Below are positions 14,128 through 64,000 of a stretch of DNA of 64,000 nt, one piece after another. The DNA lies in the NCBI RefSeq assembly GCF_024139115.2, contig NC_085139.1, positions 930,001 through 994,000 of the forward strand, written 5' to 3'. A program made the translations under genes and the position numbers. The notes under the pieces were generated by a model. The model had not been told where the DNA came from, made no database searches, and saw only the letters and a program-made list of their open reading frames with translations. The DNA is from Armigeres subalbatus (lineage: Eukaryota > Arthropoda > Insecta > Diptera > Culicidae). How positions within the stretch are numbered: the first letter of the stretch is position 1; every line of letters starts with the position of its first letter.

Positions 14128-14886
14128 TTGTCGTCTGTCGTTCTTCTTGTCGCAACAAGGTATACCACCGGCATTGCATACAGTATTGAAGCTACATTTC
14201 CACAAAGGATCTTTTAATTTATTCTGTCCAACTCTATGTCTAAAGTATAGTCCAGTCGACGTGGACTTAAGTTTCCTCTTCTCTGCATTTTGCATGAAAA
14301 AATGCTGTTAAATCTACCCCCAATCCTGATAATCTTGAAGGATGGCACACGAAGTAGAATGGGATTTTACGGGACAAGAAATCATTGTTCTAAACTGTAT
14401 TGAAACAATTCCAGTTTGAAGAACGGAATGCATCGTTGAGTGCTTTCAAGTCTTACACGGTGAACCTTGTCGAAAAAAGACACAAAAAGAAGATGACAAT
14501 GGATTCCTATTGATTATCTCGTAAAACAATTGATAATCATTAATTATTCATATGGATTATGAACAAACTTTTAATGAGTAACAATTGTTGAATAAACTGA
14601 GCTTGAGCTTGATTGACTGTTCGTAGTTGCTACTCCATTATGACCAGATCAGCTGTTCTTCCACAGGGAACCAACAGATGCTTGCTTGGGACTAGCAATC
14701 ATCCTCAATGTACAAGTACTGGAATTATGGGTATTGTCGTAGAGTCCATTGTCTATAGATATTTAAAAAATAGTCCATAGATATAAAAGAATGGAACAGT
14801 ACCATCGAATGCAACTTGTTGCAATAATCGGTTAAGGAAAAAAAATGGTCGTACATTCTGAGCCCATATTTCGATCTGATCCATTT
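14128..14886. other. Intergenic DNA
   Basis: No gene or repeat supported. Confidence 0.4.
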
Positions 14887-16899: not shown

Positions 16900-17038
16900 T
16901 GCTGAATTTGTTGAAAACATGGGCCAATATGACCCTTATTTGGCCAAGTGTCACCCCCGATGACGGTAATCACATCATAGTTTTCATTTGTTTTGTTCTC
17001 AATACTATGGCTTTTCAATTTTAACCAATTTTGTAATT
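16900..17038 (+). repeat. Spacer shared with the foldback-like element
   Basis: TGCTGAATTTGTTGAAAACA through to CAATTTTAACCAATTTTGTA is shared, almost base for base, with 47,195-47,332. It always joins the LINE tail to the 15-bp array, so the three parts have travelled together. Confidence 0.75.
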
Positions 17039-17216
17039 TCGACCTTTTGTCCCTTCGACTTTTTGTCCTTTCGACATTTTGTCCCGTCGACCTTTTGTCC
17101 ATTCGACCTTTTGTCCCGTCGACCTTTTGTCCCTTCGACCTTTTGTCCATTCGACCTTTTGTACTTCGACCTTTTGTCTGTCGACCTTTTGTCCCTCGAC
17201 CTTTTGTCATAGATTC
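17039..17216. repeat. 15-bp minisatellite ending at a defined boundary
   Basis: About twelve units of TCGACCTTTTGTCCN. The array ends in GTCATAGATTC, exactly as the right arm at 47,333-47,510 does, after which the two loci diverge. The shared end point marks a real element terminus. The translated CPFDLLS/RPFVPST repeats are artefacts of the array. Confidence 0.85.
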
Positions 17217-33470: not shown

Positions 33471-33656
33471 TTAAATTACCTTGGTATTTACCTCATAAAC
33501 ACAATACATTTGAATGTTACAATAAATTCTTTAACATGTTTATTGTTTGCCCATGTTTTGTATTGTACATCATACATCAATTAAAGTTGACGTATTTGCA
33601 CAATGAGACAATCTGTTTTGAAGATACATGTGAAATGATTTCTATAATCTTCTTTC

Positions 33657-33905
33657 TATATACATAAAAATGAGTTTCTGTCTGTCTGAACCTTATAGAC
33701 TCGGAAACTACTGAACCAATCGGAGTGAAAATTTGTATGCAGAGATTTTTGGGGCCGAGGAAGGTTCTTAAGATGGCTCGAGACCCCTCCCCCTTTGCGA
33801 AGGGAAGCTCCCATACAAATGAAACATCAATTTCTTCATAACTCGAGATCTTATCAGAGAATAAATCAACTTTGGGCGAAACAAAGTTTGTCGGGTCTGC
33901 TAGTA
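33657..33905 (+). mobile_element. Repeat family B, left copy
   Basis: Starts CTATATACATAAAAATGAG, contains TTTCTGTCTGTCTGAACC, GGAAACTACTGAACCAATCG and GACCCCTCCCCCTTTGCG, and ends TTTGTCGGGTCTGCTAGTAT. Nearly identical copies in the same orientation lie at 40,927-41,176 and 41,296-41,547. Ends within TATA-rich DNA and the GGGTC(T/A)GCTAG terminus resemble family H and may be Helitron-like; that classification is tentative. Confidence 0.75.
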
Positions 33906-35476
33906 TAAAATATTATATATAGAAGAAGGATCACCCTAAGGTTGAGTTCGGTAGCAGCATCCCTTCGGTCGTCTGGGGAAAGTGCGTTTTTGCTGCATTT
34001 TTTAATCCGTGATATTTCCAAAAATAGTTCAATTACTTTAAACGGAATGTGATTTGCCCGGAGAGCATGAAGGATTGCCAAAAGGTGTATCGGAAATGGG
34101 TTCTAAGTGTTGTTTTTCTGGATACATGGGCTCATAGAAAAGGGAGCCGCCATGACATTTCTTTTCAGGTGATGGTGATGCGATGTTTTTATTTAGTATG
34201 TGATCAAAAACGGAAGCGATGTTTTACATCATATTGATAATTAGGCAAGGCGTATACGTGAGTAGATGGAAGACGAATATGAAATATGTTGGTGTGGGTA
34301 AGAATGTCGAAACGGTAAAAATGGATAAAAGGTAGGGTCATTATAGTATATGTGAAAGTGAAAGATGAACGAAGCAGTATCTAGACAGAAGAGAGAAAAC
34401 ATTTACATACATATACATCATACTGATTACGTCTTTCATGATTATGTCAAGGGCTGTATTGATGGATTGTGTGATGATGGTTTGAACATAGATGAAGGCG
34501 TGCACCGCGTATAACGGGTCCTTGTGTTGAAACACCTACAGAAGACTAAGTTGCTGTATGCTCTTTATACTGGGTACAATTTGTATAGATGTGTAATCAT
34601 ACAGTTGTTGGTAACATCTAGGCATGCACACTTCCACCGCCGAGACAAAACAGGCACATATGAGTGCGATGGTGTTTGTATAATTATGTATCGATATGGT
34701 GTCACAATCAGGGGCGGCACGGACTTAGGTGCAACAAATATTCTAACACGTAAGTACAAAACACCGAAGAAAATCATGTGAATTTGCACCAATACCATAA
34801 AATGGGTAAAGATTATCTGATCTATTTGTTATTATATTGTACGGTTACGAGATAAACAGATGGCCTAAACTAAGCAATATAGTCATTACTACAGTTCTCG
34901 GGTGCTTGTTCGGGGGGACGTGTGTGGTTTTGTAGACGGGGATTCGGACGCCGATTTGTCCAGTCTGGTGGCGCTCCCGCGCGGGCCATCACCGCAGACA
35001 GATAGGGGAAGCATTCGGCTACCTGTTGGTGGTGTTGGTTTGCGTGGGGGTGCCGTCGGATTGGGCGGGTCGACGTTTGAGTCTTTGTTTGCAGGATCGC
35101 ATGCGTCCTTTTGAGTAGGTACCCGAGAGTTCATTATCGTACTATGACGGAAAGCAAAACCTTCAAAAATCACAACAAAATTTAAACATTGGTATAAAGA
35201 CTAACATTGAAGAAAAAATGATGAATAATGGAAAATGTAAAACATATAGTTTTTCTTTTATTTTTAATTCCATTCATTGGATTTTTATTTAGCCTAATGC
35301 AGTATTCTATACTGTTCTAAAGTAAAACGATTCGCCAAAAATCATACTTCTTCCTCACGAAATAAATAGCAAAGAATACAAAAACAACTTAAAACAGAGA
35401 ATTTTGAAGAAAGAAAAGTAGGAAATTATCATTTTATGGAAATTGTCCACATATCAGGGTTCATCAATCAGTGATT
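33906..35476. other. DNA between family B and the OTU-LINE
   Basis: Contains only short frames. The minus frame at 34,341-34,535 and a proline-rich minus frame at 34,889-35,173 lie downstream of the OTU-LINE on its strand; neither has a known domain. 34,900-35,110 is markedly GC-rich. It could be 3' sequence of the element or flanking DNA. Confidence 0.35.
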
Positions 35477-35541
35477 CTGAAAAATAATAAATAAAATAAT
35501 TCAATTATAATGCAAAAACAGAATAAGTATTTATCTTTCAC
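35477..35541 (-). other. Possible terminal intron (65 bp)
   Basis: GGGGTAG|GTGAAAG ... ATTTTTCAG|AATCAC. Splicing would change only the last residues (after DFSDWGR) and bring a stop a few codons later. The acceptor tract is strong. Confidence 0.35.
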
Positions 35542-38500
35542 CTACCCCAATCGCTAAAATCAGATTCATCTTGGTCGTAGATTTCATTTAACTTCTGATT
35601 GAACCTATCTTTATCTAAGGCTAAATTTTTCCACTCTTCATAACCAAAATTCCCGTATCGCTGCATCGTTTGCTGTATACTATTCCACCAGGTAAAGCTA
35701 GGTCTACAGGAACGAAGACGTTCCGGGCGTAACCGGGCAGCACACCGCAGCGGATGAGAGCGGTCGCGCCGGCGAACATGTCCCCACCAACGCATCTGGT
35801 AGACGCGAACCTTCTTTGTTATTCTTTTCTTATTCAACAGTCTATTGACGGAGCTGGTAGCAGAAAAACCATCTGAAACACGGCACAATCCCGCGAAATT
35901 TCTAACGATTTGCTTCTCATATCCTCTTAAAGACTTGCGGCTGTATTTCGTTAATACTGAAACTTGAGTACCATAAATCATGGAAGGAGCAATTACAGAT
36001 TCATATATAATGCGGCCCAACTCCCAGGAGGGTGTATACTTTTTAAGGAAATCCATAACAGCTCTGGACACGCGTACCGCATTTCGACAACGGGTTCGTG
36101 TAGTCATCGGTCGCTCCAACCTTGCAGTAAAATAAGCCCCCAAATACCTTAAGGGCTCTGTCGCATTATACAATCGTCCACCAATTAATATTTCCGACAC
36201 AGCGTCTCCGGTGGGTTCCCTGATTAAAACCTTACACTTCGTTTCATTTAGGTTGAGTCCGACATACGCCAAATACTCTTTGATCGTCGCCAATATTAAT
36301 TCTAAATCCTCAACGTTGTCAACGATAATAATAATATCATCAGCAAAAGCCAAGATAATGGGAAGCGAAAGGGTATCAGTCTGATTCAACCGCAAACTTG
36401 GAATAACATCGGCAACCGATTCTAATACGGCCTCCATTATTAGATTAAAAATATATGGAGACAAAGGACAGCCTTGCTTTATCCCCCGACGACGTTGAAT
36501 TGGCCTGGTCAGCTGACCCTTCCACAAAATCTGCTGCCTTTCGTCCCGCAAACACTCCAAAATTCGATTAATAAAGGAATCCGGAGCACCCTTTCCTGAA
36601 ATCAACATGTAATCAATGAGTATGCTTCAGTTTCTTCAAATCTAGTTCGGTAAAATACCTCTTAATATAGCAGGCAATGATTCCAACGATACTCGATCGA
36701 AAGCTTTTTCAATATCCAAGGACATTATTAATGTAGATTCTCCACCATTCCACCTCTCTTGTAAGACTCGCTGCAACACGTGCAGATGATCAATGGTTGA
36801 TCTTTCTGGTAAGAAAGCAGCCTGATGAAAACCGATTGTAGGTATCTGGTTCTGCAATTTCATCAAAATCCAGCTGGCATAAACCTTGTAAGCGGTACAG
36901 CTCAAACAGATCCTACGATAATCATCTATAGACTTGGGTGACTTTACTTTAGGAATAGGCACAACCAACACACTCTTCCAATCAGCTGGAATCTTGTTCT
37001 CTGTCCACACACGAACAAGAAGCTGATGGAGCTCTTCCAGGGTTCCACTATCACAATATTTGAAGTACTCGGCATACAGTGAATCCACGCCCGGAGTTTT
37101 CCCATTCTTAAGACTGCTCACAATATTCTGGATTTCCAAAAGAGTAGGAGGAGACAATAAAGGAGAATCTTCTAATTCCTCTAAAGCCGGTGGAATATGT
37201 AGGTCGCAAGTTGGAGCATTATCTTCGGAAATCCAATCACTCAACCGAATGGTGGAAGGAGCAGACCGGACACTTTTCTTTTTGTTGAACCGCTTGAGAT
37301 ATTTGAAAGTGCGATTTATGCGTTCTCCAGCTGGATACTGATGGAGACTTTCAAAAAAAAGTCGGATTTCGTTCTCCTCATATTCACGAATCTTCATACG
37401 CAATATCTCCCGTGCCTCGGATAACTTATACGTCCATTTTGGATTTGAAGAACGGTTGTACCAAAATAAACACTTTTTAACATCAGCCAAAGCTTTTCGA
37501 CACTCCCTAGTAGGTGGAATGGATGATTTTTTCTGCAAAATATCTTTAGCGATGTTTTGAACTTTGGTTTTCAACAGATTCCAAGAATCTTCAATAGAAC
37601 TCGATAGATTTGCTGGAAATTGAGCTTCGACCAGACGAGACAGGAATTGCTGACGCACATCAGCCCTTTGGAGCAGAGCAGGATCTGCATTAATCCTAGG
37701 TTGTAAGGTGGCATCTGGTCTTACTGTGGAAGGCATTGGCATCGAAGGATTTGAAAGGGTATCAATGACGTTGCATAAAAGCAATTTATGATCAGTGCGA
37801 ACATCTTTTGATAAAACGCACTGCAGCCGCCGTAGAAATAATCCTGAATGCAACGAAGTTAGCAAATGGTCCACCTGGCTGCGAAGAGTTCCATTTGTCC
37901 ATGTCCACCGAAAACTTTCGTTTGAATTGAATTGAGTAGAGCGAACAGCAAGCACATGTAAACAAATGAACATTTTCATTTGTAAACCATTTTCATTAAA
38001 ATATTCATGCCCGGCATACCGACCGATTAATTGCACTTCGTCTGGACTTAGCCTGGAATTCGATAAATGGCTGTTGAAGTCACCTGCCACAATGAGACGG
38101 TGTTTACTATCTAGTTGACCAACTATTGAACCAAGTCGACTGAAGAACGTATCGGATCCATGATTAGGGCCGTGCACGTTGATAATGTCCAGCTCTCGAA
38201 GATCGGAACCAACCTATCCAGAAAGACAGTAAAATACAATAGTAATACATAAATAATAAAGCTTTACCTGGTATAAAATGTTGGCATGTTGAATATTTGA
38301 CCCAGCATAGATACTCTTCTGGTGCACAGCATTCAAATCACGACGAATCAAAATAGCTAAACCTCTTCTTCTATTGTTCGCTCGTCCACTCATATGCCAG
38401 TGAAAGTTATTTGTTATAGCAGACTGGCAATCTAGATTGACCTCCTGCAACACAGCTAGCTGAACTCGATATAACATTAACAAGGAGTCAATGGCATTTC

Positions 38501-39734
38501 GTTTGTCCAAGTTTCTACAACCATTGACATTCAAAGAAGCAAAACGCAATCCGTGCTTTGGATCAATTGAAATAAGAGAAGGTTCTGTCATCTGAGAATC
38601 AGCTAGCTCTAACCTAGACACTTTCTGGGCAACCATCATAGGATCAGGCAAATTTCGGCGTGGGGCAACGATGCGACGATTGACACATTCGCTAGGAAAT
38701 ATACTTCCATACACGTTATTTGACTGGGTAGGATCTTCAAGCACATTGATTGACATGGTTGCCAAGCCATCGAATGGATCATATCTTTGAATGCCGTTAT
38801 GTACATTATGTACGAGGATGGATAGCATCAAAACATTCGACAAAACGATCAGAGAGGCAACGCCACCGTTGTGGCTTCCGAGTCGAAGACGAAAAGCGAA
38901 TTGTGAAACGTCCTCAGAAGAGTGTAAAGAAGAACCACATGCAGTTAAGAATACGGAAGGTTGATCTTCAATCTCATCGGCTACTAGACATCGCACTAGA
39001 AATAGTGTTTCCTCAGAAGCGATCGCTTTGGTGAGCTGGTGCAATATAGCGTTCAGCAGGGCGTTAGGTGCGCTGCCAAAGAACTTGACACGTGTTGCAG
39101 TTGTAGAAGTAGAGAGCTGAATTAATTGCTCATCACGATCATCCTGAACACCTTCCATGAGACGCATGAAAAGAACGCTGTCATAGTGAACTTTTCGTCC
39201 ATCAGCACCAATCTGACAATCAGAGTCGTTTACTCCACAACTTCGATAGAACAAATGGTATTGACGAGGATTGGGATTTGTGGAATTAGTGGGAGTGAAC
39301 TCAATACTGGTAACATCTTGATGCACGATGAAGGACACCTGGAAATCAGCACTGTTATAGTTATGTTTACAAAATTATGATTCATTACTGTAGACCTGGA
39401 AATGATTAGACAAAGCGGCAATCGAATCGGATCCACCCCAATAACCGGTAGTTTTCAACTTAGATAAGTATTCATCCACTTTATCAGAAACTGAACAATC
39501 AGATGCTATTACTTCATTCGCAGTAGACGATACAGTTTCATAGTAGAGATGTAGGTTATGTATAATTTCCGTGACAGCGGCTTCTCGAACTAATTGACTG
39601 TATGTTTTAAATAAACGATGTTTAGGTGTCATACCATAAATCTGATGGACAATCGCCCCAAAAAGGCAATCTCCATCGCCAGGAATATTTAAAATCCAGA
39701 ACAGGTTTCCACGGATGTCACTAAGTTGTTCCAT
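35538..39734 (-). CDS. OTU-endonuclease-reverse transcriptase protein, four exons
   Basis: Exons on the minus strand: 39,734-39,396; 39,338-38,268; 38,213-36,659; 36,595-35,538. Splicing gives 4,023 bases and 1,340 residues with no stop or frameshift. Domains: OTU cysteine protease, residues about 10-145 (DGDC 20-23 with C23 as nucleophile, H141 as likely catalytic His); APE endonuclease, about 378-620 (SLNVNG, LQE at about 410, GDFNS 514-518, VDH at 584-586, TDH with H612); reverse transcriptase, about 800-1,110 (DIEKAFD 970-976, GIKQGCPLSP 1026-1035, FADD with D1074 and D1075, GLNLNETK); C-terminal RWWGHVRRR region as in RTE-like LINEs. Intron 1 lies inside OTU, intron 2 inside APE and intron 3 inside the RT palm; each split motif becomes complete after removal. 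The OTU would act on ubiquitin-like conjugates or process the polyprotein (family knowledge). All key residues are intact. It may be an intron-bearing retroelement or a domesticated copy. The start is the first Met after a possible leader intron. Confidence 0.82.
36596..36658 (-). other. Intron 3 (63 bp) inside the RT palm
   Basis: TTAAGAG|GTATTTT ... GATTTCAG|GAAAGG, phase 1. Removal joins LPAILRG to KGAPDSFINRI, the normal helix after the first catalytic aspartate motif. Stops occur in all readings through the gap. Confidence 0.8.
38214..38267 (-). other. Intron 2 (54 bp) inside the APE domain
   Basis: TACCAG|GTAAAGC ... CTGGATAG|GTTGGT, phase 0. Removal joins ANILYQ to VGSDLRELDIINVHGPN, restoring the strand and HGP motif of the endonuclease. 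Confidence 0.8.
39339..39395 (-). other. Intron 1 (57 bp) inside the OTU domain
   Basis: TTCCAG|GTCTACAG ... GATTTCCAG|GTGTCC, phase 0. Retention ends the frame after HFQVYSNES; removal joins NHFQ to VSFIVHQD, the expected beta strand before the catalytic His region. Confidence 0.8.
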
Positions 39735-39765
39735 TCCAACAAATCTACGTGTTCGAAATAATGAG

Positions 39766-39821
39766 CTAAAAAACTTAGCAGGAACTAAACAAATTGTATT
39801 ATTGATTAGGTTATGCATTAC
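39766..39821 (-). other. Possible leader intron (56 bp)
   Basis: CACCGAG|GTAATGC ... AAGTTTTTTAG|CTCATT. The size matches the other three introns. If used, translation starts at the ATG at 39,734; if not, an extra 28 residues precede it. Confidence 0.4.
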
Positions 39822-40462
39822 CTCGGTGGTGGTTGTGTGCGTGCGGGTGGAGATTTAAAAAAAAGGTATCATCAATAATTCTAATGCTACATATGATACG
39901 AAATCATAATTTAACAAATACAGGATCATACTGGGAATAAATGAATAGGGAATACAACATAATTAATTTCAATCTAAAAATATGCGAATGAATAATATAT
40001 GAAATTCCAAACTAAACCAAATATCTATTTAAAAAATATTCATTCAACCTATATAACACATATTATGCATCATAATACCTATCGAGGATTGGTAACATTC
40101 ATTCATTCAGGATTGGTAACATATAACACTATTAATTCTATTGAATCCTTTGTCCTTGAACAAGCCTACACCTAAAAATCATATATTCAGGTCCTTTCTT
40201 CTTTTAACACTCCTACAAAATAAAAGTTGAATGGTTCGTCACAACAAGTGTCGGCTTAAGAATCGTTAGGAACATACAAAAATGTGAAAAGATAACAAAT
40301 ACATGAAATAAGATGAGGCTCAGAAAATTCATTATTTTACTACATCAAAAATGAATAGTTCGTCATCGTAAGGTGTCGGCGTGTACCTATAGACTATACC
40401 AGTTATCATTGTTAAAAGCACACTATCCTATTTTATTAAAGTTGCATGAATCATATCACTTA
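39822..40462. other. AT-rich leader or intron region
   Basis: No frames. If the exon at 40,463-40,737 belongs to the OTU-LINE, this is intron; otherwise it is 5' flank. A GGATTGGTAACAT(A/T) pair at 40,088 and 40,112 is a short direct repeat. Confidence 0.35.
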
Positions 40463-40737
40463 CCAAGGTGAATCCTGATTTCTGTAACTACACACCCCAT
40501 CCCACTAACAAAAACCCCTCCTGTGACATCTGTGGAGATGCAGAGGTGATCTCGGTCTCTAGTAGCAACGGATGTCACGCTAATATTCCCTCCTATCCCA
40601 GATGACCGTAAGGACGTGGCCGGCGCCGTTATTGATTCTTCTATTTCTGGGCTCTTGACTTGTGCACATTGAGGTTGGACAGCTATTCCCAAGCCCCAAC
40701 TATTGGTTCCCTGTGCAATTTCAATTGTCCTGATCAA
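40463..40737 (-). CDS. Candidate upstream exon of the OTU-LINE or a separate ORF
   Basis: A 92-codon minus-strand frame that ends at a canonical donor, CACCTTG|GTAAGTG (40,462). It is GC-richer than its surroundings and reads like coding sequence (TRDRDHLCISTDVTGGVFVS), but no domain is recognisable. It lies about 700 bases upstream of the OTU start on the same strand, so it could be a 5' exon or an ORF1. No clear matching acceptor was chosen. Confidence 0.3.
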
Positions 40738-40770
40738 TCACGGAGTAGCAACTACGAATTGTACGGTCAT

Positions 40771-40798
40771 CAAGCTCAATCAAGCTCAAGCTCAAGCT
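40771..40798. repeat. CAAGCT short tandem repeat
   Basis: CAAGCTCAATCAAGCTCAAG followed by CTCAAGCT, at the boundary with the 370-bp array. Confidence 0.6.
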
Positions 40799-41665
40799 CT
40801 GCTAGTATAAAATATTATATATAAAAACAGTTGAATAAGAATACACTTTATCGTAAAAAGAAAAAAAATATTAAAAATGCTATATATAGTTGCAATTTTC
40901 AAAATTTTCGGAATACTAACTAAAATCTATATACATAAAAATGAATTTCTGTCTGTCTGAACCTTATAGACTCGGAAACTACTGAACCAATCGGAGTGAA
41001 AATTTGTATGCAGAGATTTTTGGGGCCGAGGAAGGTTCTTAAGATGGCTCGAGACCCCTCCCCCTTTGCGAAGGGAAGCTCCCATACAAATGAAACATCA
41101 ATTTCTTCATAACTCGAGATCTTATCAGAGAATAAATCAACTTTGGGCGAAACAAAGTTTGTCGGGTCTGCTAGTATAAAATATTATATATAAAAACAGT
41201 TGAATAAGAATACACTTTATCGTAAAAAGAAAAAAAATATTAAAAATGCTATATATAGTTGCAATTTTCAAAATTTTCGGAATACTAACTAAAATCTATA
41301 TACATAAAAATGAATTTCTGTCTGTCTGAACCTTATAGACTCCGAAACTACTCAACCAATCGGCGTGACAATTTTGTATGCAGAGATTTTTGGGGCCGGG
41401 GAAAGTTCTTAAGATGGTTCGAGACCCCTCCCCCCTTTGCGAAGGGGGGCTCCCATACAAATGAAACATCAATTTCTTCATAACTCGAGATCTTATCAGA
41501 GAATAAATCAACTTTGGGCGAAACAAAGTTTGTCGGGTCTGCTAGTATAAAATATTATATATAAAAACAGTTGAATAAGAATACACTTTATCGTAAAAAG
41601 AAAAAAAATATTAAAAATGCTATATATAGTTGCAATTTTCAAAATTTTCGGAATACTAACTAAAA
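40799..41665 (+). repeat. 370-bp tandem array, A-B-A-B-A
   Basis: CTGCTAGTATAAAATATTAT starts at 40,799, 41,168 and 41,539 (steps of 369 and 371). Each A segment (about 128 bases, ending CGGAATACTAACTAAAAT) is followed by a B segment (family B, about 245 bases); the last B is absent. B in the second unit has several substitutions and an altered poly-C/G stretch, so the array is not brand new. Segment A contains an AAAAAGAAAAAAAATATTAA tract. Confidence 0.9.
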
Positions 41666-43230
41666 TATAAAAATATTTAAAAGATATTTTTTATATAAAT
41701 TTGTTGCAAAAATGCAATTTGGAAAATATTGTTTTATTATTCGTTTTTTGAGTGATTCTCTTTGAGAATGTATGATGGTACTCACCACATTTACAGTTCA
41801 ATCTTGATGTTAATGTTTCCTTTGGAAAACTAAGCTGAAAAACAAAATATGCGGTGTTCAGACATTGTTTCATCTCGTTGTTGCTTCTACAGAAGTAGAT
41901 ATGTAAATGAAAATAGGCTGCAATGAAGGTCGTGGAAAACAAATAAATGGTGCCATTTGGCAAGAAGTGTAGGTCAGTTCTCAAGTTCAGCATAGTCTCT
42001 TTCTTTCTATAGGTCGACATTCTTAAATACAGTTTCGAAACGAAGGTTAATGGTGACTCAGGCAAAATGATTAGATTTCTAGCAAGAAAATACGATGATT
42101 ACCGTATCGAAATAGATGAAATAATCATGAAAATTGTCCCCCGTCAGGCAAAGCATAGCCTTTGAGTACATAATTCATGATGGAAGTCATCAAAAATTTG
42201 ATATTCAACCAAGGTTATGTCCATCTTCATTTGAATGGGTTCAAAAGTGAGTGTTTGTTGATTCGCGAGTTCCACAATACAAAACAGAATATGTTTTTCT
42301 TCTAAACTATAGGAATACTTAATCATAAGAGGTGCACAAGCGCCATAATGGAATGTGTGAATGAAAATGTCCGATAAAAAACCAGAACAGTAATGAGGAA
42401 TATAGTTATTATTTACTCGATTTTGTTCTGTTCGCGCTGCGCACGAACCGAAACAAAAAAATCTCATGCAAATGCTGACCGCACCGACGCGACGGCTCGA
42501 CTATCACGCAGCAGCAAAAAAAAACAGTTTGCCTCATCGACAAAAAAATGTCACAATGAGGCATACATTTTTTTTGTAAAACCGTTTCGGTTTGTGCGGG
42601 GCGTGAAATTTGACCGGATAAAATGTAAACATTCATAATCACAGTGTTTTACTGTACATTTCCCAACACTGCACCTGCGGGTCTCGTACGATGCGTTTGT
42701 TTCTCAATCGTCTTTGACGCGTGGTTCAGCACAAGGACAAAATAGATGAACTTAAAGCATGAACTTTGAAAAAGTGATATGTTTTCTTGTACAATCGAAT
42801 GAAATTGAAATGAAATATTTTTGTTTTGATCAATATAGGGTAAATGGTTCAATAGTGGAGGAACTAAGCACACCCCAACACTATTCAATCGTTTAGAATT
42901 GATTACAGCTAGACTGGGGTGTTTATTGATATATTTTGGCTTTTTCAGTCTGATTTATTCAAACGGGCTTATATTTGCATTGCCCGACGTTTCGGCCTGT
43001 TTATTGGGTCTTTTTCCCTTGAAAAAGTTTATAATTTAAAGATATCTCACTCCACCAACCTTACGGAGTATTTCCAAACCTTTTTCACTCCTCTTTGGTG
43101 TGAGAATACATCGGTTCCTCCGGGATGTGAATGTTTCACCTAAAATGAATCCTCCAAGTATTGGTACACTGCTCCCATAGTTGCGGTAATTTTTAATTTG
43201 CGTTCCTATATTTGCGAATCCCATTGTTTT
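41666..43230. other. No supported gene; ORFs and repeat traces
   Basis: Minus frames 42,467-42,144 (107 codons) and 42,065-41,691 (124 codons) are consecutive on one strand and moderately hydrophobic, but I cannot assign them. 42,985-43,030 contains GACGTTTCGGCCTGTTTATT, a motif resembling repeat tails (compare 2,925-2,940 inverted). 43,150-43,500 holds several CATAGTTGCGG/CGCAACTAT modules in both orientations, possibly a decayed MITE. Confidence 0.35.
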
Positions 43231-44775: not shown

Positions 44776-45563
44776 AAAATTGAGAGCAAGTTTAAGCTTG
44801 GTGAGGAATTAAATAATTTGCGGGCAGCAGGGACTATGTCCAAGGGCTTGACGATCCCTCCCCAGGCCATCTGCGAGTTGTGGCCCTTGTCTAGGCTTGT
44901 CTAGGATGTGGTGGGGTTTGACAGTGGGCCCTGTTAAATTCCTATAAAAAGCTGCATGTATCCGCAAGTAGACCCCACCAAAGCGACTGTGTGCCGCTCA
45001 AAGCGCACAAGCCCAAGTCCTGGTGTTAGGTGGGACGTTAAACAGCCCTGACACGACGGTCCTCCGACGAGACAGGAGGTTTGCGCAGTCCCAATAAGCC
45101 GCCTGGAAAACCAATAATTACGAACAATATAAGAGATAATGCGACACGATATAATCGGCAAAGACCTAGGCGACGAATAAAGGATGACGATTGGAAGGTT
45201 GGAACATGGAACTGCAAGTCGCTAGGTTTCGCAGGTTGCGACAGGGTGATCTACGATGAATTACATCCCCGCAACTTCGACGTCGTGGCGCTGCAGGAGA
45301 TTTGATGGACAGGACAGAAAGTGTGGAAAAGCGGGCATCGAGCGGCTACCTTCTACCAAAGCTGTGGCACCACCAACGAGCTGGGAATTGGTTCCATAGT
45401 GCTGGGTAAGATGCGCCAATGCGTGATTGGGTGGTAGCCAATCAACGTAAGGATGTGCAAGCTAAGGATTAAAGGCCGTTTCTTCAACTACAACATCATC
45501 AACGTGCATTGCCCACACGAAGGGAGACCCAACGACGAGAAAGAAGCGTTCTACGCGGCTTTG

Positions 45564-45747
45564 GGACAGAATGTCGAAAGACAAAAGGTCGAAGGACAAA
45601 AGGTCGACGGACAAAAGGTCGAAGAGACAAAAGGTCGATGGGACAAAAGGTCGAAGGGACAAAAGGTCGACGGGACAAAAGGTCGAGGGGACAAAACGTC
45701 GACGGGACAAAAGGTCGAAGGGACAAAAGGTCGAAAGGACAAAATTT
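45564..45747 (+). repeat. Left arm: GGACAAAAGGTCGAA array
   Basis: About twelve units of 14-15 bases, GGACAAAAGGTCGAA with GAC/GGG variants at the junctions. It is the inverse of the right arm. The frames in it are artefacts. Confidence 0.9.
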
Positions 45748-47332: not shown

Positions 47333-47502
47333 TTCGACCTTTTGTCCCTTCGACTTTTGTCCTTTCGACATTTTGTCCCGTCGACCTTTTGTCCATTCGA
47401 CCTTTTGTCCCGTCGACCTTTTGTCCCTTCGACCTTTTGTCCATTCGACCTTTTGTCCTTCGACCTTTTGTCTGTCGACCTTTTGTCCCTCGACCTTTTG
47501 TC
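47333..47502 (-). repeat. Right arm: TCGACCTTTTGTCCN array
   Basis: About twelve units, in the same order of variants as the array at 17,039-17,209 (CCCTT, CCGT, CCATT, CCGT, CCCTT, CCATT), which shows common descent of the two arrays rather than independent expansion. Confidence 0.9.
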
Positions 47503-48975
47503 ATAGATTCTTCTACGCACAGCTGGAGCAGACATACGATGGATGCCCACTGCGGGACGTCAAAATCGTCATCGGTGACATGAACGCACAGGTAGGAAGG
47601 GAGGAAATGTATAGACCGGTCATCGGACTGGATAGTCTGCACACCGTATCGAATGACAACGGGCAACGATGCATAAACTTTGCAGCCTCCCGCGGAATGG
47701 TAGTCTGAAGCACCTTCTTTCCCCGCAAAAACATCCACAAGGCCACATGGAGATCACCTAACCATGAAACGGAAAACCAAATCGACCACGTTCTAATCGA
47801 CGGTAAATTCTTCTCCGACATCACGAACGTCCGCACTTACCGCAGTGCGAATATTGAATCCGACCACTACCTCGTTGCAGTATGCCTTCGCTCAAAATTC
47901 TCGACGGTGTATAACACACGTCTAAGTCGGACGCCGCGGCTTGATATTGGGCGGCTACAAGACGGTAGACTAGCCCAAGAATACGCGCAGCAGCTGGAAG
48001 TGGCACTCTCAACGGAAGAGCAGCTAGGCGCAGCGTCTCTTGAAGATGGCTGGAGAGATATTCGATCCGCCATTGGTAGCACCGCAACCGCTGCACTTGG
48101 CACGGTGCACCCGGATCAGAGAAACGGCTAGTATGACGGCGAATGTGAGCAGTTAGAAGAATGCAGCATGGGCGAGATTTCTACAACACCGCACGAGGGC
48201 GAACGAGGCACGATATAAACAGGCGCGGAACAGACAAGATTCGATTCTATGAGAAGTTGAACCGTTCACGTAAGGGTCTCGTGCCACATCCTGATATGTG
48301 TAAGGACATAAACGGGAACCTTCTTACGAACGAGCGTGAGATAATCCAAAGGTGGCGGCAGCACTACGAAGAGCACCTGAATGGCGATGTGGCAGACGAA
48401 GATGGCGGTATGGTGATGGACCTGGGAGAACGCGCGCAGGACATAATTCTACCGGCTCCGGATCTCCAGAGAATACAGGAGGAGATTGGCCGGCTGAAGA
48501 ACAACAAAGCCCTTGGGGTTGACCAACTACCAGGAGAGCTATTCAAACACGGTGGTGAGGCACTGGCTAGAGCGCTGCACTGCCGCAGGAGTGGATGGAA
48601 GGTGTCGTGTGTCCCATCCACAAAAAGGGCGATAAGCTGGATTATAGCAACTACCGCGCAATCACATTGCTGAACGCTGCCTTCAAGGTACTCTCGCAGA
48701 TTTTATGCCGTCGACTTGCACCAATTGCAAGGGAGTTCGTGGGGCAGTACCAGGCGGGTTTTATGGGCGAATGCTCCACCACGGACCGGGTGTTCGCCAT
48801 TCGCCAAGTACTGCAGAAATGCCGCGAATACAACGTGCTCACACATCATCTATTCATCGACTTCAAAGCCGCATATGATACAATCGATTGGGACCAGCTA
48901 TGGCAGCTAATGCACGAACACGGATTTCCGGATAAACTGACACGGTTGATCAAAACGACGATGGATCGGGTGCTC

Positions 48976-49080
48976 GAGCAGCACACATTTTGTACATAGA
49001 TCACAGAAGCTTATATGTGACCCGATTTAGTTACAATTAGGTTGCTGTAACCAGTTTCATTAGACTTGTGCTGCTTGGGT
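48976..49080. mobile_element. About 105-bp insert in the LINE, short inverted ends
   Basis: The LINE reads GGATCGGGTG, then this insert, then GGGTGATGTGCG, so GGGTG is a candidate 5-bp duplication. The insert ends are GAGCAGCACA and the inverse of AAGCAGCACA. It is absent from the copy at 63.5-64.0 kb, although that copy has its own deletion here. Confidence 0.5.
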
Positions 49081-53776: not shown

Positions 53777-54234
53777 AGAGCAGAATTTTTTGCACAGAGG
53801 GTTGGACGGACACATTGCCTACAGATTTGGGTGCCCGACTGAATGAGGCTTTGGCTTAGGCGAATTCCAAAGACCAGTTAAACATTTTTTGTATTATTCT
53901 ACTAAGTAGATTAAATTCTAGTAGACAACCTAATTCAAATTCACAACTAATCAACCAACCTATTCATTAACCAATGTTTGTCACCACACTGTCTTAGATA
54001 CACCATCACATGAGGTAGATTTGAAATTGAATTCTGACGAGTTCCACCTCAACAACATTCTAACGACTAACTAACAACAACAATCATAACACGAGCTCAG
54101 TACTATTCAAATCAATTCCACCACGATGTATTGTATCACAACTGTAAGGCCATCTTCAGTGTCTCTTATTTTACTAGACTCGACTCCAGTCAATTGATTT
54201 TTTTATTGCGATTAGTCATCGGCGTGGCAAAATT

Positions 54235-54310
54235 ATGATCGGCGGCGCGCCGACCCAAAATCGTCGGCGGCGGCGGCGTGTGTAAAACCACCGGCGGCGG
54301 CGGCGCACAG
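54235..54310. repeat. CGG-rich subterminal repeat, right
   Basis: GATCGGCGGCGCGCCGAC, GTCGGCGGCGGCGGCGTG and CCGGCGGCGGCGGCGCAC blocks, echoing the left end. Confidence 0.85.
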
Positions 54311-54725
54311 GTCTATTTTCAATAAGTCCGTCCAGCTATTTGGCTTCGCCGACGACATAGATATTATGGCACGTAACTTTGAGAAGATGGAGGAAGCCTA
54401 CATTAGACTGAAGAGGGAAGCCAAGCGGATCAGACTAGTCATCAACACGTCGAAGACGAAGTACATGATAGGAAGAGGTTCAAGAGAAGACAATGTGAGC
54501 CACCCACCGCGAGTTTGCATCGGTGGTGACGAAATCGAGGTGGTAGAAGAATTTGTGTACTTGGGTTCACTGGTGACTGCCGAAAATGATACCAGCGGAG
54601 ATGGAAATGTGGCTGAAATTCGGAGATGCATAGTGGCTGGAAATCGTACATACTTTACACTCCGCAAGACGCTCCGATCGAATAGAGTTTGCCGCCGTAC
54701 CAAACTGACAATCCTCTTCCGATTC

Positions 54726-55499
54726 CGCGCCACTGGATTGTCTGTATTGGATGTTCCATTTCCGGTTCCACTTCTACCGACAGTGAAAAATCACACCAAT
54801 GAAATACAATCGTCGCTCACGTTGAAACTTCAAATGCGTTTTTTTTTTCAATTTTCTCGTTTGTAACATGAGACATTTATGCGTCGGACGGCAGTTAACA
54901 ACGATCCTTCACATACTCTTTTTTAACAACGTCCAAAAGAAAACTTGAGGGTTATAGTTCTAGCCTGTCGTAGAGTAAATAAATTATTTTGAAACAAATA
55001 TTATCACGAACAACTTTGCTGTAGATGCCGAGAGTCTATTTCTTACACTATCTGTACACGTTTTACGTAGAAAACTCCTCGTCGGAGGACCGACTTCTAT
55101 ATAGCAATTGACATAGCTAGCCGAGTTGAGGTGATGTTGATTGACTTTACAGTTCAAAGCTGGGTTATTTCAGACGACCAAATGAAGAACTAACTTAGAC
55201 ATATTCCTTTTTTGTAGCTGTTAAGTACAAAGTTCATCACTTTTCGACCCCTTTCCTTGATTCAAAACCCATTCTACGGCGGACGGATTTTTATTCAAGA
55301 AGTGTTTATTTTTTTCTATTTTACCAAACTTTTCGTTATTTATAATTTGTAGTAGTGTAATATTTTGACAAACGGTTAATGTTTTTGATGTGCCCAAGAT
55401 GATTTTGGTGCCCCACGGTATGTGTTTTTTGTTTTGACGCTACATTCCAACTGAAACTTGACCGTCTTTTTAACTAAGTAATCTATAAGCATTTCCTCA
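54726..55499. other. Intergenic DNA
   Basis: No gene. GAGTTGAGGTGATG near 55,125 may be a scrap of family X. Confidence 0.4.
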
Positions 55500-62930: not shown

Positions 62931-63544
62931 CCCAGCGTTACGGGGGTCGTGAAGTTAACAATGTGGAATGTACGTAAACCGATCTCGATATTGCCTCCGT
63001 TCTGGGTATTCCATTGCTCACGCACAATTCACTGTCTGTGAGGGAGATCTGTAAAAAACAATACCCGGTCATAGTTACTTCAGAAGTATGTGAAATTGCG
63101 CACGGATCAACGGGCAACCTTATTGCCACTACACGAGAGAATAACGAATTCTGCAAATTGTTGAAACCCGTCACATTTTCGCGTTTTTGGGTCCTAAGTG
63201 GTAGCGCATCAAGTGCCTAAGGAGAAAATTCATTTGTTTATTTGTTTATATATTAAAATACAACTGACAATAAAATGTCTAAATGAATAAAAACTTAAGC
63301 TAGTTGGTTACGGCCAACAGTACGGAAAGAGCCGAGTATCCGATGACGAAACACGTCGACTGGTTGAAGTCAAACAGGTCAAAAAACACGTTGAAGCGCC
63401 TGCTGATTGACCTCGTGTAGTGCATAATTGCAAGTCTGTTGTTCTAGTCTAGATACACAAAAGAACGTTGCTGAGGTCTTTCAGGTGCATACAGATTAAG
63501 TTGCGACAGTAATTTTGGACAATCGATATTTCCGGTGAGCAGCT
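62931..63544. other. No supported gene
   Basis: Plus and minus frames at 62,938-63,220 overlap and neither is recognised. 63,240-63,540 shows no repeat evidence. Confidence 0.35.
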
Positions 63545-64000
63545 TTCCAGCGTGTTCCCTGTCGTGTGTCCCATCTACAAAAAGGGCGATAAGAGAGCTG
63601 AACGCCGCCTACAAGGTACTCTCCCAAATTTTATGCCGTCGACTAGCACCAATTGCAAGGGAGTTCGTGGGGCAGTACCAGGCGGGTTTTATGGGCGAAC
63701 CTCCACCACGGACCAGGTGTTCGCTATTCCCCAAGTACTGCAGAAATGCCGCGAATACAACGTGCCCACACATCATCTATCCATCGACTTCAAAGCCGCA
63801 TATGATACAATCGATCGGGACCAGCTATGGCAGCTAATGCACGAACACGGATTTCCGGATAAACTGACACGGTTGATCAAAGCGAGGATGTTCCTTCGAA
63901 ACCCGTAGAGGGTTACGGCAAGGTGATGGTCTTTCGTGTCTGCTATTCAACATCGCTTTGGAGGGAGTAATACGAAGGGCAGGGATTGACACGAGTGGTA
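63545..64000 (+). pseudogene. RTE-like LINE reverse transcriptase, runs off the window
   Basis: From GTGTCCCATCTACAAAAAGG the sequence follows the copy at 48,605-49,220 closely: LCRRLAPIAREFVGQYQAGF, QVLQKCREYN and DFKAAYDTIDRDQL. It lacks about 30 bases near 63,597, one base near 63,700 (frameshift), and the segment between LIKA and the arginine-glycine motif near 63,890. It has no insertion at the site used by the 5.08-kb element and ends at the window edge just before that site. Confidence 0.88.

Follow-up and report, generated by a model that had tools for sequence, protein, structure and literature searches.

Intron loss is the usual signature of retroposition, and mobile elements that bear an OTU domain include RandI/Dualen. 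In the parts of the cited works consulted here and below, Ginger1 transposons bear OTU (PMC2836005), some Helentrons encode both OTU and an apurinic/apyrimidinic (AP) endonuclease (PMC4067079, PMC6431247), and Penelope-like elements keep introns, with an antisense template proposed as one possibility (PMC3846280). Here we describe a locus of the mosquito Armigeres subalbatus that touches on each of these systems. It lies in a stretch of 64,000 nucleotides (the window; contig NC_085139.1, positions 930,001 to 994,000, or C1:930001-994000 in the 1.336-Gb assembly with three large contigs that formed our search space), where a gene with three predicted introns, encoding an OTU protease, an APE endonuclease and a reverse transcriptase (RT), sits antisense inside a transposed unit of 6,876 bp. 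We consider this unit to be, probably, an ambisense or 'negative-sense' non-long-terminal-repeat (non-LTR) retrotransposon, in which a spliced mRNA would be made from one strand and the antisense RNA would serve as template.

The gene occupies 39734-35538 of the minus strand, from an ATG at 39734 to a stop codon ending at 35538, in four exons. Exon 1 (39396-39734, 339 nt) carries OTU sequence with PGDGDCLF, exon 2 (38268-39338, 1,071 nt) the end of OTU with HYDSV and the start of APE, exon 3 (36659-38213, 1,555 nt) the second half of APE and the first half of the RT with SLDIEKAFD, and exon 4 (35538-36595, 1,058 nt) the remaining RT with FADD and a C-terminal part with WWGHVRRR. The introns, all GT-AG and on the minus strand, lie at 39339-39395 (intron 1, 57 nt, phase 0), 38214-38267 (intron 2, 54 nt, phase 0) and 36596-36658 (intron 3, 63 nt, phase 1). 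A sequence-only reading of this DNA had proposed four open segments separated by gaps of these lengths, ends and phases, joining into 1,340 residues, and our recount confirmed it. The predicted spliced product has the order OTU-APE-RT, with Pfam matches to OTU (residues 18-129, E 1.8e-11), Exo_endo_phos (380-591, E 7.9e-15) and RVT_1 (896-1142, E 1.4e-32). Each domain is split by one gap and scores higher in Pfam when joined than in pieces, as expected from the earlier proposal that removal of the gaps rejoins the domains. The motifs PGDGDCLF and HYDSV in OTU, LQE, GDFN and TDH in APE, and LDIEKAFD and FADD in the RT are presumably catalytic. By sequence, LINE-1 ORF2 chains in PDB come nearest among solved structures (best E 4.6e-31). 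Neither RNase H nor an integrase, a second endonuclease family, GIY-YIG or a Rep/helicase family was matched in the Pfam scan, which covered the spliced protein among the open reading frames (ORFs) of the window.

An intact frame is by itself weak proof of introns, as 84 in-frame combinations of GT or GC donors with AG acceptors arise from 9 x 21 x 9 candidates at this locus. The introns can be taken to exceed chance because introns 2 and 3 stand at the same place in families only 55-68% identical in exon 3; in these families (loci L045, L047 and L049) the GT...AG ends are kept and the intron sequence is dissimilar. Splicing at the three introns is predicted from DNA sequence. Intron 1 was seen only in the window's family and is absent from L046, L047, L049 and the outside relative P0002, the L045 copy being decayed there. 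Its splice sites sit within a 10-bp direct repeat, ATTTCCAGGT, and this repeat and the single-family occurrence suggest an origin by local duplication, possibly a case of intron gain.

A larger unit, spanning 33922-40797, contains the gene; the sequence-only reading missed this unit together with the region 5' of the ATG, though the gene itself was correctly placed. The unit is bounded by a 26-bp target site duplication, TCTGCTAGTATAAAATATTATATATA at 33896-33921 on the left and its direct repeat at 40798-40823 on the right; the right copy opens with bases shared with the terminal GCTC of a microsatellite, which leaves an ambiguity of 2-3 bases in that edge. It interrupts a 371-bp tandem array (33655-33921 and 40798-41666). 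In gene orientation the unit opens with a (TTGAGC)n run followed by a block of 350-450 bp. Read on the plus strand, this conserved block (40429-40799, the 'leader' 5' of the ATG) looks like a LINE-type 3' tail (LINE, long interspersed nuclear element), ending in an (AAGCTC)n microsatellite whose length varies among copies. We take this block for the 3' tail of an RNA that was retroposed, which would make the gene antisense to the mobile RNA. The latter would run on the plus strand from a 5' G at 33922 to the microsatellite ending at about 40797, and its 5' region would be 33922-35537, which lies 3' of the stop codon in gene orientation. Elsewhere in the assembly, among the matches scored (40 of 782 candidates in the search for this far end), 33922-35537 recurs only as a nested palindrome and as about 68 bp beside the stop codon in L013. 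The palindrome, a repeat resembling a miniature inverted-repeat transposable element (MITE) at 34896-35128, has dozens of matches, many of them on both strands of one place. Rfam returned a single match in 33600-41700, far under its gathering score.

A search of the assembly, with 40 of 4,454 candidates scored, gave at least seven other copies of the unit, all fragmentary (L014 and L015 counted as one). Most aligned pieces match at 77-98%, with some as low as 66%. Intron sequence persists in each copy found to span it: four of four for intron 1 (L009, L010, L011, L012), three of three for intron 2 (L011, L012, L014) and four of four for intron 3 (L010, L011, L013, L015). No precise excision was seen among these copies; L011 has deletions in intron 1 and at the 3' side of intron 3, and both L011 and L012 carry splice-site mutations. 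The suggestion that a mobile LINE-like element had retained its introns is borne out by these counts, which contradict the many intronless copies named beforehand as the sign of chance insertions. The copies are also lopsided. Whereas the tail terminus is kept in five of seven (L009, L010, L011, L012, L016), the far end, on the gene's 3' side, is kept in none. The 98% alike L009 illustrates this, with a 25-bp flanking repeat, an unchanged intron 1 and an end at about residue 371, just ahead of the endonuclease domain, without poly(A).

The association of tail and gene extends beyond this family. A protein search with exon 3 (83 of 56,079 candidates scored) gave at least 91 matches, including a group at 53-72% identity. 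The tail lies 5' of the gene, in antisense, in five of the seven families examined (the window, L045, L047, L049 and L051), and tail matches in control loci numbered zero across 54.6 kb. Both L045 (68% identical in exon 3) and L047 (58%) are decayed copies with OTU, introns 2 and 3 and a related antisense tail upstream; the L045 tail is 82% like that of the window over 358 bp, and a perfect 25-bp duplication, 6.4 kb apart, surrounds its whole decayed gene. L049 (55%) has the antisense tail, introns 2 and 3, OTU and open exon frames. Upstream of a 54% match at C2:335580242, L051 carries a tail in the same orientation (71-73% over 300-350 bp) with a TTAGC run. The more distant L046 (41%) has OTU and intron 3 and lacks intron 2; its element ends were looked for and not found. 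The fusion of OTU to APE and RT, described earlier as unusual, is therefore not private to the window copy, since OTU is also present in L045, L046, L047, L049 and P0002. Between families pN in exon 3 is 0.22-0.35 and pS is saturated, above 0.80; exon 3 is, by this sequence comparison, evolving under constraint. Against copies of its own family, the window gene gives ratios of non-synonymous to synonymous change (dN/dS) of 0.42-0.52 for the older ones. The length of the open frame was also considered as a test for introns and rejected as misleading: C3:226780521 (L053, from a further relative), with a frame of 1,199, retains in frame, at the intron 3 position, a segment of about the intron's size that has no clear acceptor.

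A 25-mer of the tail has 1,744 exact matches in the genome (884 + 860) and none in a reversed-pattern control. We examined 20 tail copies, 12 in listing order (the first listed on contig C1, leaving aside the window and L028) and 8 picked for similarity. Where a direct repeat was found, it abuts the microsatellite end, with the other end of the copy 0.5 to 3 kb off, and target duplications of these related copies measure 16-30 bp. When starts were defined automatically, a flank-repeat score of at least 16 was reached by 13 of the 20 copies (5 of the 12); all controls stayed below it, the 380 permuted pairs peaking at 13 and the 20 reversed flanks at 14. The RNA 5' end is often, yet not generally, a G. 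Three of the 12 listing-order copies, L040, L043 and L044, form one family of about 795 bp, 97% identical, that resembles a short interspersed nuclear element (SINE) and shares an unusually long tail of about 330 bp. At the end opposite the tail, ARAGORN at a relaxed threshold gives a tRNA-Met(CAT)-like fold in two of the three (L040 and L043). In six tail loci Rfam gave 13 matches to microRNA hairpins, every one under its gathering score.

How the unit would move can be set out from this anatomy. The sense mRNA, made from the minus strand, would lose three small introns by splicing and then be translated to give the OTU-APE-RT protein. Reverse transcription would act, as the anatomy supports, on a transcript of the plus strand that starts at 33922 and ends with the (GCTCAA)n tail at 40797; the introns are backwards in this RNA and so cannot be spliced there. 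Priming at the tail on a nicked target would leave the duplications of 16-30 bp, and the gene's 3' side would be lost when copying is incomplete. Non-coding families that bear such tails, the SINE-like one among them, would share the machinery, which would be the element's own RT. Copying from unspliced RNA, one of the options raised by the sequence-only reading, thus holds in effect, except that the RNA appears to be antisense, with its introns unrecognisable. We incline, somewhat cautiously, to the view that introns have been retained through the life of the lineage for this reason, the moving RNA being the complement of the mRNA.

Compared with APE-type non-LTR elements, the unit is alike in having APE and RT in one protein, target duplications of variable length (26, 25 and 25 bp in the window, L009 and L045), a microsatellite at a common RNA 3' end, truncation at the opposite end relative to the tail, and SINE-like families that share the tail. 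It is unlike LINEs in that the protein, judged by DNA anatomy, is antisense to the apparent mobile RNA, that it has up to three spliceosomal-type introns, dispersed copies being other than intronless, that it begins with an OTU protease, and that RNase H is without a match. Penelope-like elements also keep introns, and an antisense template is an idea for them too; their endonuclease, however, is GIY-YIG (PMC3846280), whereas here it is APE, and the antisense polarity here is backed by tail, tRNA-like head and truncation. What sets the protein apart from Ginger1 and RandI/Dualen is that its Pfam scan showed neither an integrase nor another endonuclease family. The Repbase clade Ambal was tried as a candidate and rejected, as it is listed under 'protists' only in the part of PMC4438587 consulted (Table 3).

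The most serious alternative is that the gene is antisense cargo, with an ordinary LINE that has the tail in sense supplying the RT and the OTU-APE-RT gene carried along. Such a source is favoured by the general knowledge that the tail of a SINE is usually a sense copy of the 3' end of a LINE. Consistent with it, long frames are lacking in the bodies of the seven non-coding tail copies that were read, and no RT match falls inside non-coding tail copies among the matches listed, so trans-mobilisation does occur. Against it stand the recurrence of the antisense tail in five of seven families, the constraint on the protein, frames that are open in two distant families (the window and L049), and non-coding tails that match particular coding families; in the loci read, within a genome search that was non-exhaustive, none of the LINEs had the tail in sense. 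The tails of L024, L027, L028 and L029 match the window's tail (87-90%), the L049 tail pairs with another repeat within locus L009 (91%, 353 bp), the L047 tail pairs with the window repeat at 14599-14717, which has a (GAGCTT)2 end (87%, 124 bp), and the tails of L036, L040 and L033 are 4-5 points nearer L045 than the window. Such pairing fits self-mobilisation and would be unexpected for chance cargo, although another LINE could also produce it. On this evidence we regard the cargo explanation as unlikely.

Alternatively, the sense unspliced RNA could be the template and the common upstream block its 5' leader. The kept intron sequence would agree with this, and intron-keeping retroelements are known among Penelope-like elements (PMC3846280). 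We nevertheless find it quite improbable: the gene's 3' side offers no common end (0 of 7 copies), the microsatellite and conserved block are on the opposite side, and the family with the tRNA-like head bears the block at its 3' end. A consensus donor occurs in the tail near 40464, and a sense 5' leader with a fourth intron was considered and set aside.

Movement at the DNA level, for instance as a Helentron (a rolling-circle element), draws on the likeness that Helentrons combine OTU with an APE-type endonuclease (PMC4067079, PMC6431247). The unit differs from them in its marks of retroposition, namely target duplications (25-26 bp around the coding units, 16-30 bp overall), a variable terminal microsatellite and one-sided truncation, and in a complete RT domain with no Rep or helicase family in the spliced protein. 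The Helentron reading was dropped on these grounds, and DNA-level movement, which the sequence-only reading had listed, is not needed and very improbable. A domesticated host gene, also listed there, or a chance assembly of open frames would fit the open frame with introns and is equally hard to credit, given at least seven dispersed copies, target duplications on the window copy, L009 and L045, and many genomic relatives.

Several observations weigh against the ambisense retrotransposon that we favour. Its anatomy, with tail and microsatellite, retained introns, duplications and recurrence across families, can be read from the DNA, and it is on this DNA anatomy that splicing and antisense transcription would rest. 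Seven of the 20 tail copies fail the flank-repeat test (one of these, L040, passes with another start), and two of the 13 that pass, L023 and L030, are in tandem arrays and hence ambiguous. Four copies of the window's family, L010, L011, L012 and L016, gave no convincing target duplication, and dN/dS against the two youngest copies, L010 and L009, is 0.94-1.20, with few changes. The presumed nick shows a weak base preference, with T at 9 of 15 tail-side ends and A at 8 of 15 far-side ends. The tRNA-like head is likewise equivocal. At its default threshold ARAGORN gives no tRNA in the L040/L043/L044 family; the relaxed one yields no tRNA-Met for L044 and, for both L043 and L044, an additional tRNA-Ser call on the opposite strand. 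The RNA 5' regions of the families have no evident common promoter, and 33922-35469 (1.55 kb) is, among the matches scored and apart from the nested palindrome, single-copy. No tail was found in 1.1 kb upstream of the 63% match at C1:14969799 (L052) or in 3.2 kb upstream of the L046 OTU frame, and the L051 evidence is an upstream stretch, the first exons being outside the region read.

Clear relatives elsewhere are two. P0001, a partial Culex pipiens protein, is 57% identical over 52% of the query, starting after the OTU part and covering APE and RT. P0002, encoded on a 5.7-kb contig, is 44% identical over 74% of the query and has the order OTU-APE-RT; it is uninterrupted across intron 1, diverges at intron 3, and at intron 2 has 23 additional residues, with V-R at the start and F-Q at the end, resembling a read-through intron. 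In an RT tree of 21 hand-chosen rows, the window, L045, L046, L047, L049, P0001 and P0002 form one group (100/100), within which the Culex row is nested with less support (83/88, 88/96). From these data we lean towards a self-sufficient lineage of negative-sense LINEs that would predate the families in this genome and in Culex and would spread the families behind the more than 1,700 tail copies. The age of this lineage leans on the weakly supported Culex nesting, the Culex side being known from its protein sequence.

We know of no other retrotransposon with its protein gene antisense to its mobile RNA, and the replication strategy is apparently undescribed. No antisense-coding LINE was found in the literature searched, whose partial coverage leaves absence from print unproven. 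The search included the consulted parts of two mosquito papers (PMC7728395, PMC5248466), which had nothing on such an element, and of the papers used for Repbase clade lists (PMC4455052, PMC5753468, PMC4438587). If the ambisense reading is right, an antisense template evades the rule of intron loss, and introns are then no proof against retroposition. The messenger and the genome of a retrotransposon would be separated, as in negative-strand viruses, and the keeping of introns by retroelements, an open matter for Penelope-like elements, becomes testable by strand-specific RNA.

Elsewhere in the window, a 16-bp minisatellite (GGGACAAAAGGTCGAA) forms arrays at 17038-17208, 45563-45744 and 47333-47502. 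Plus-strand ORFs at 47709-48999, 54216-54866 and 63475-63908 look, by eye and with no search made, like pieces of ordinary LINE RTs.

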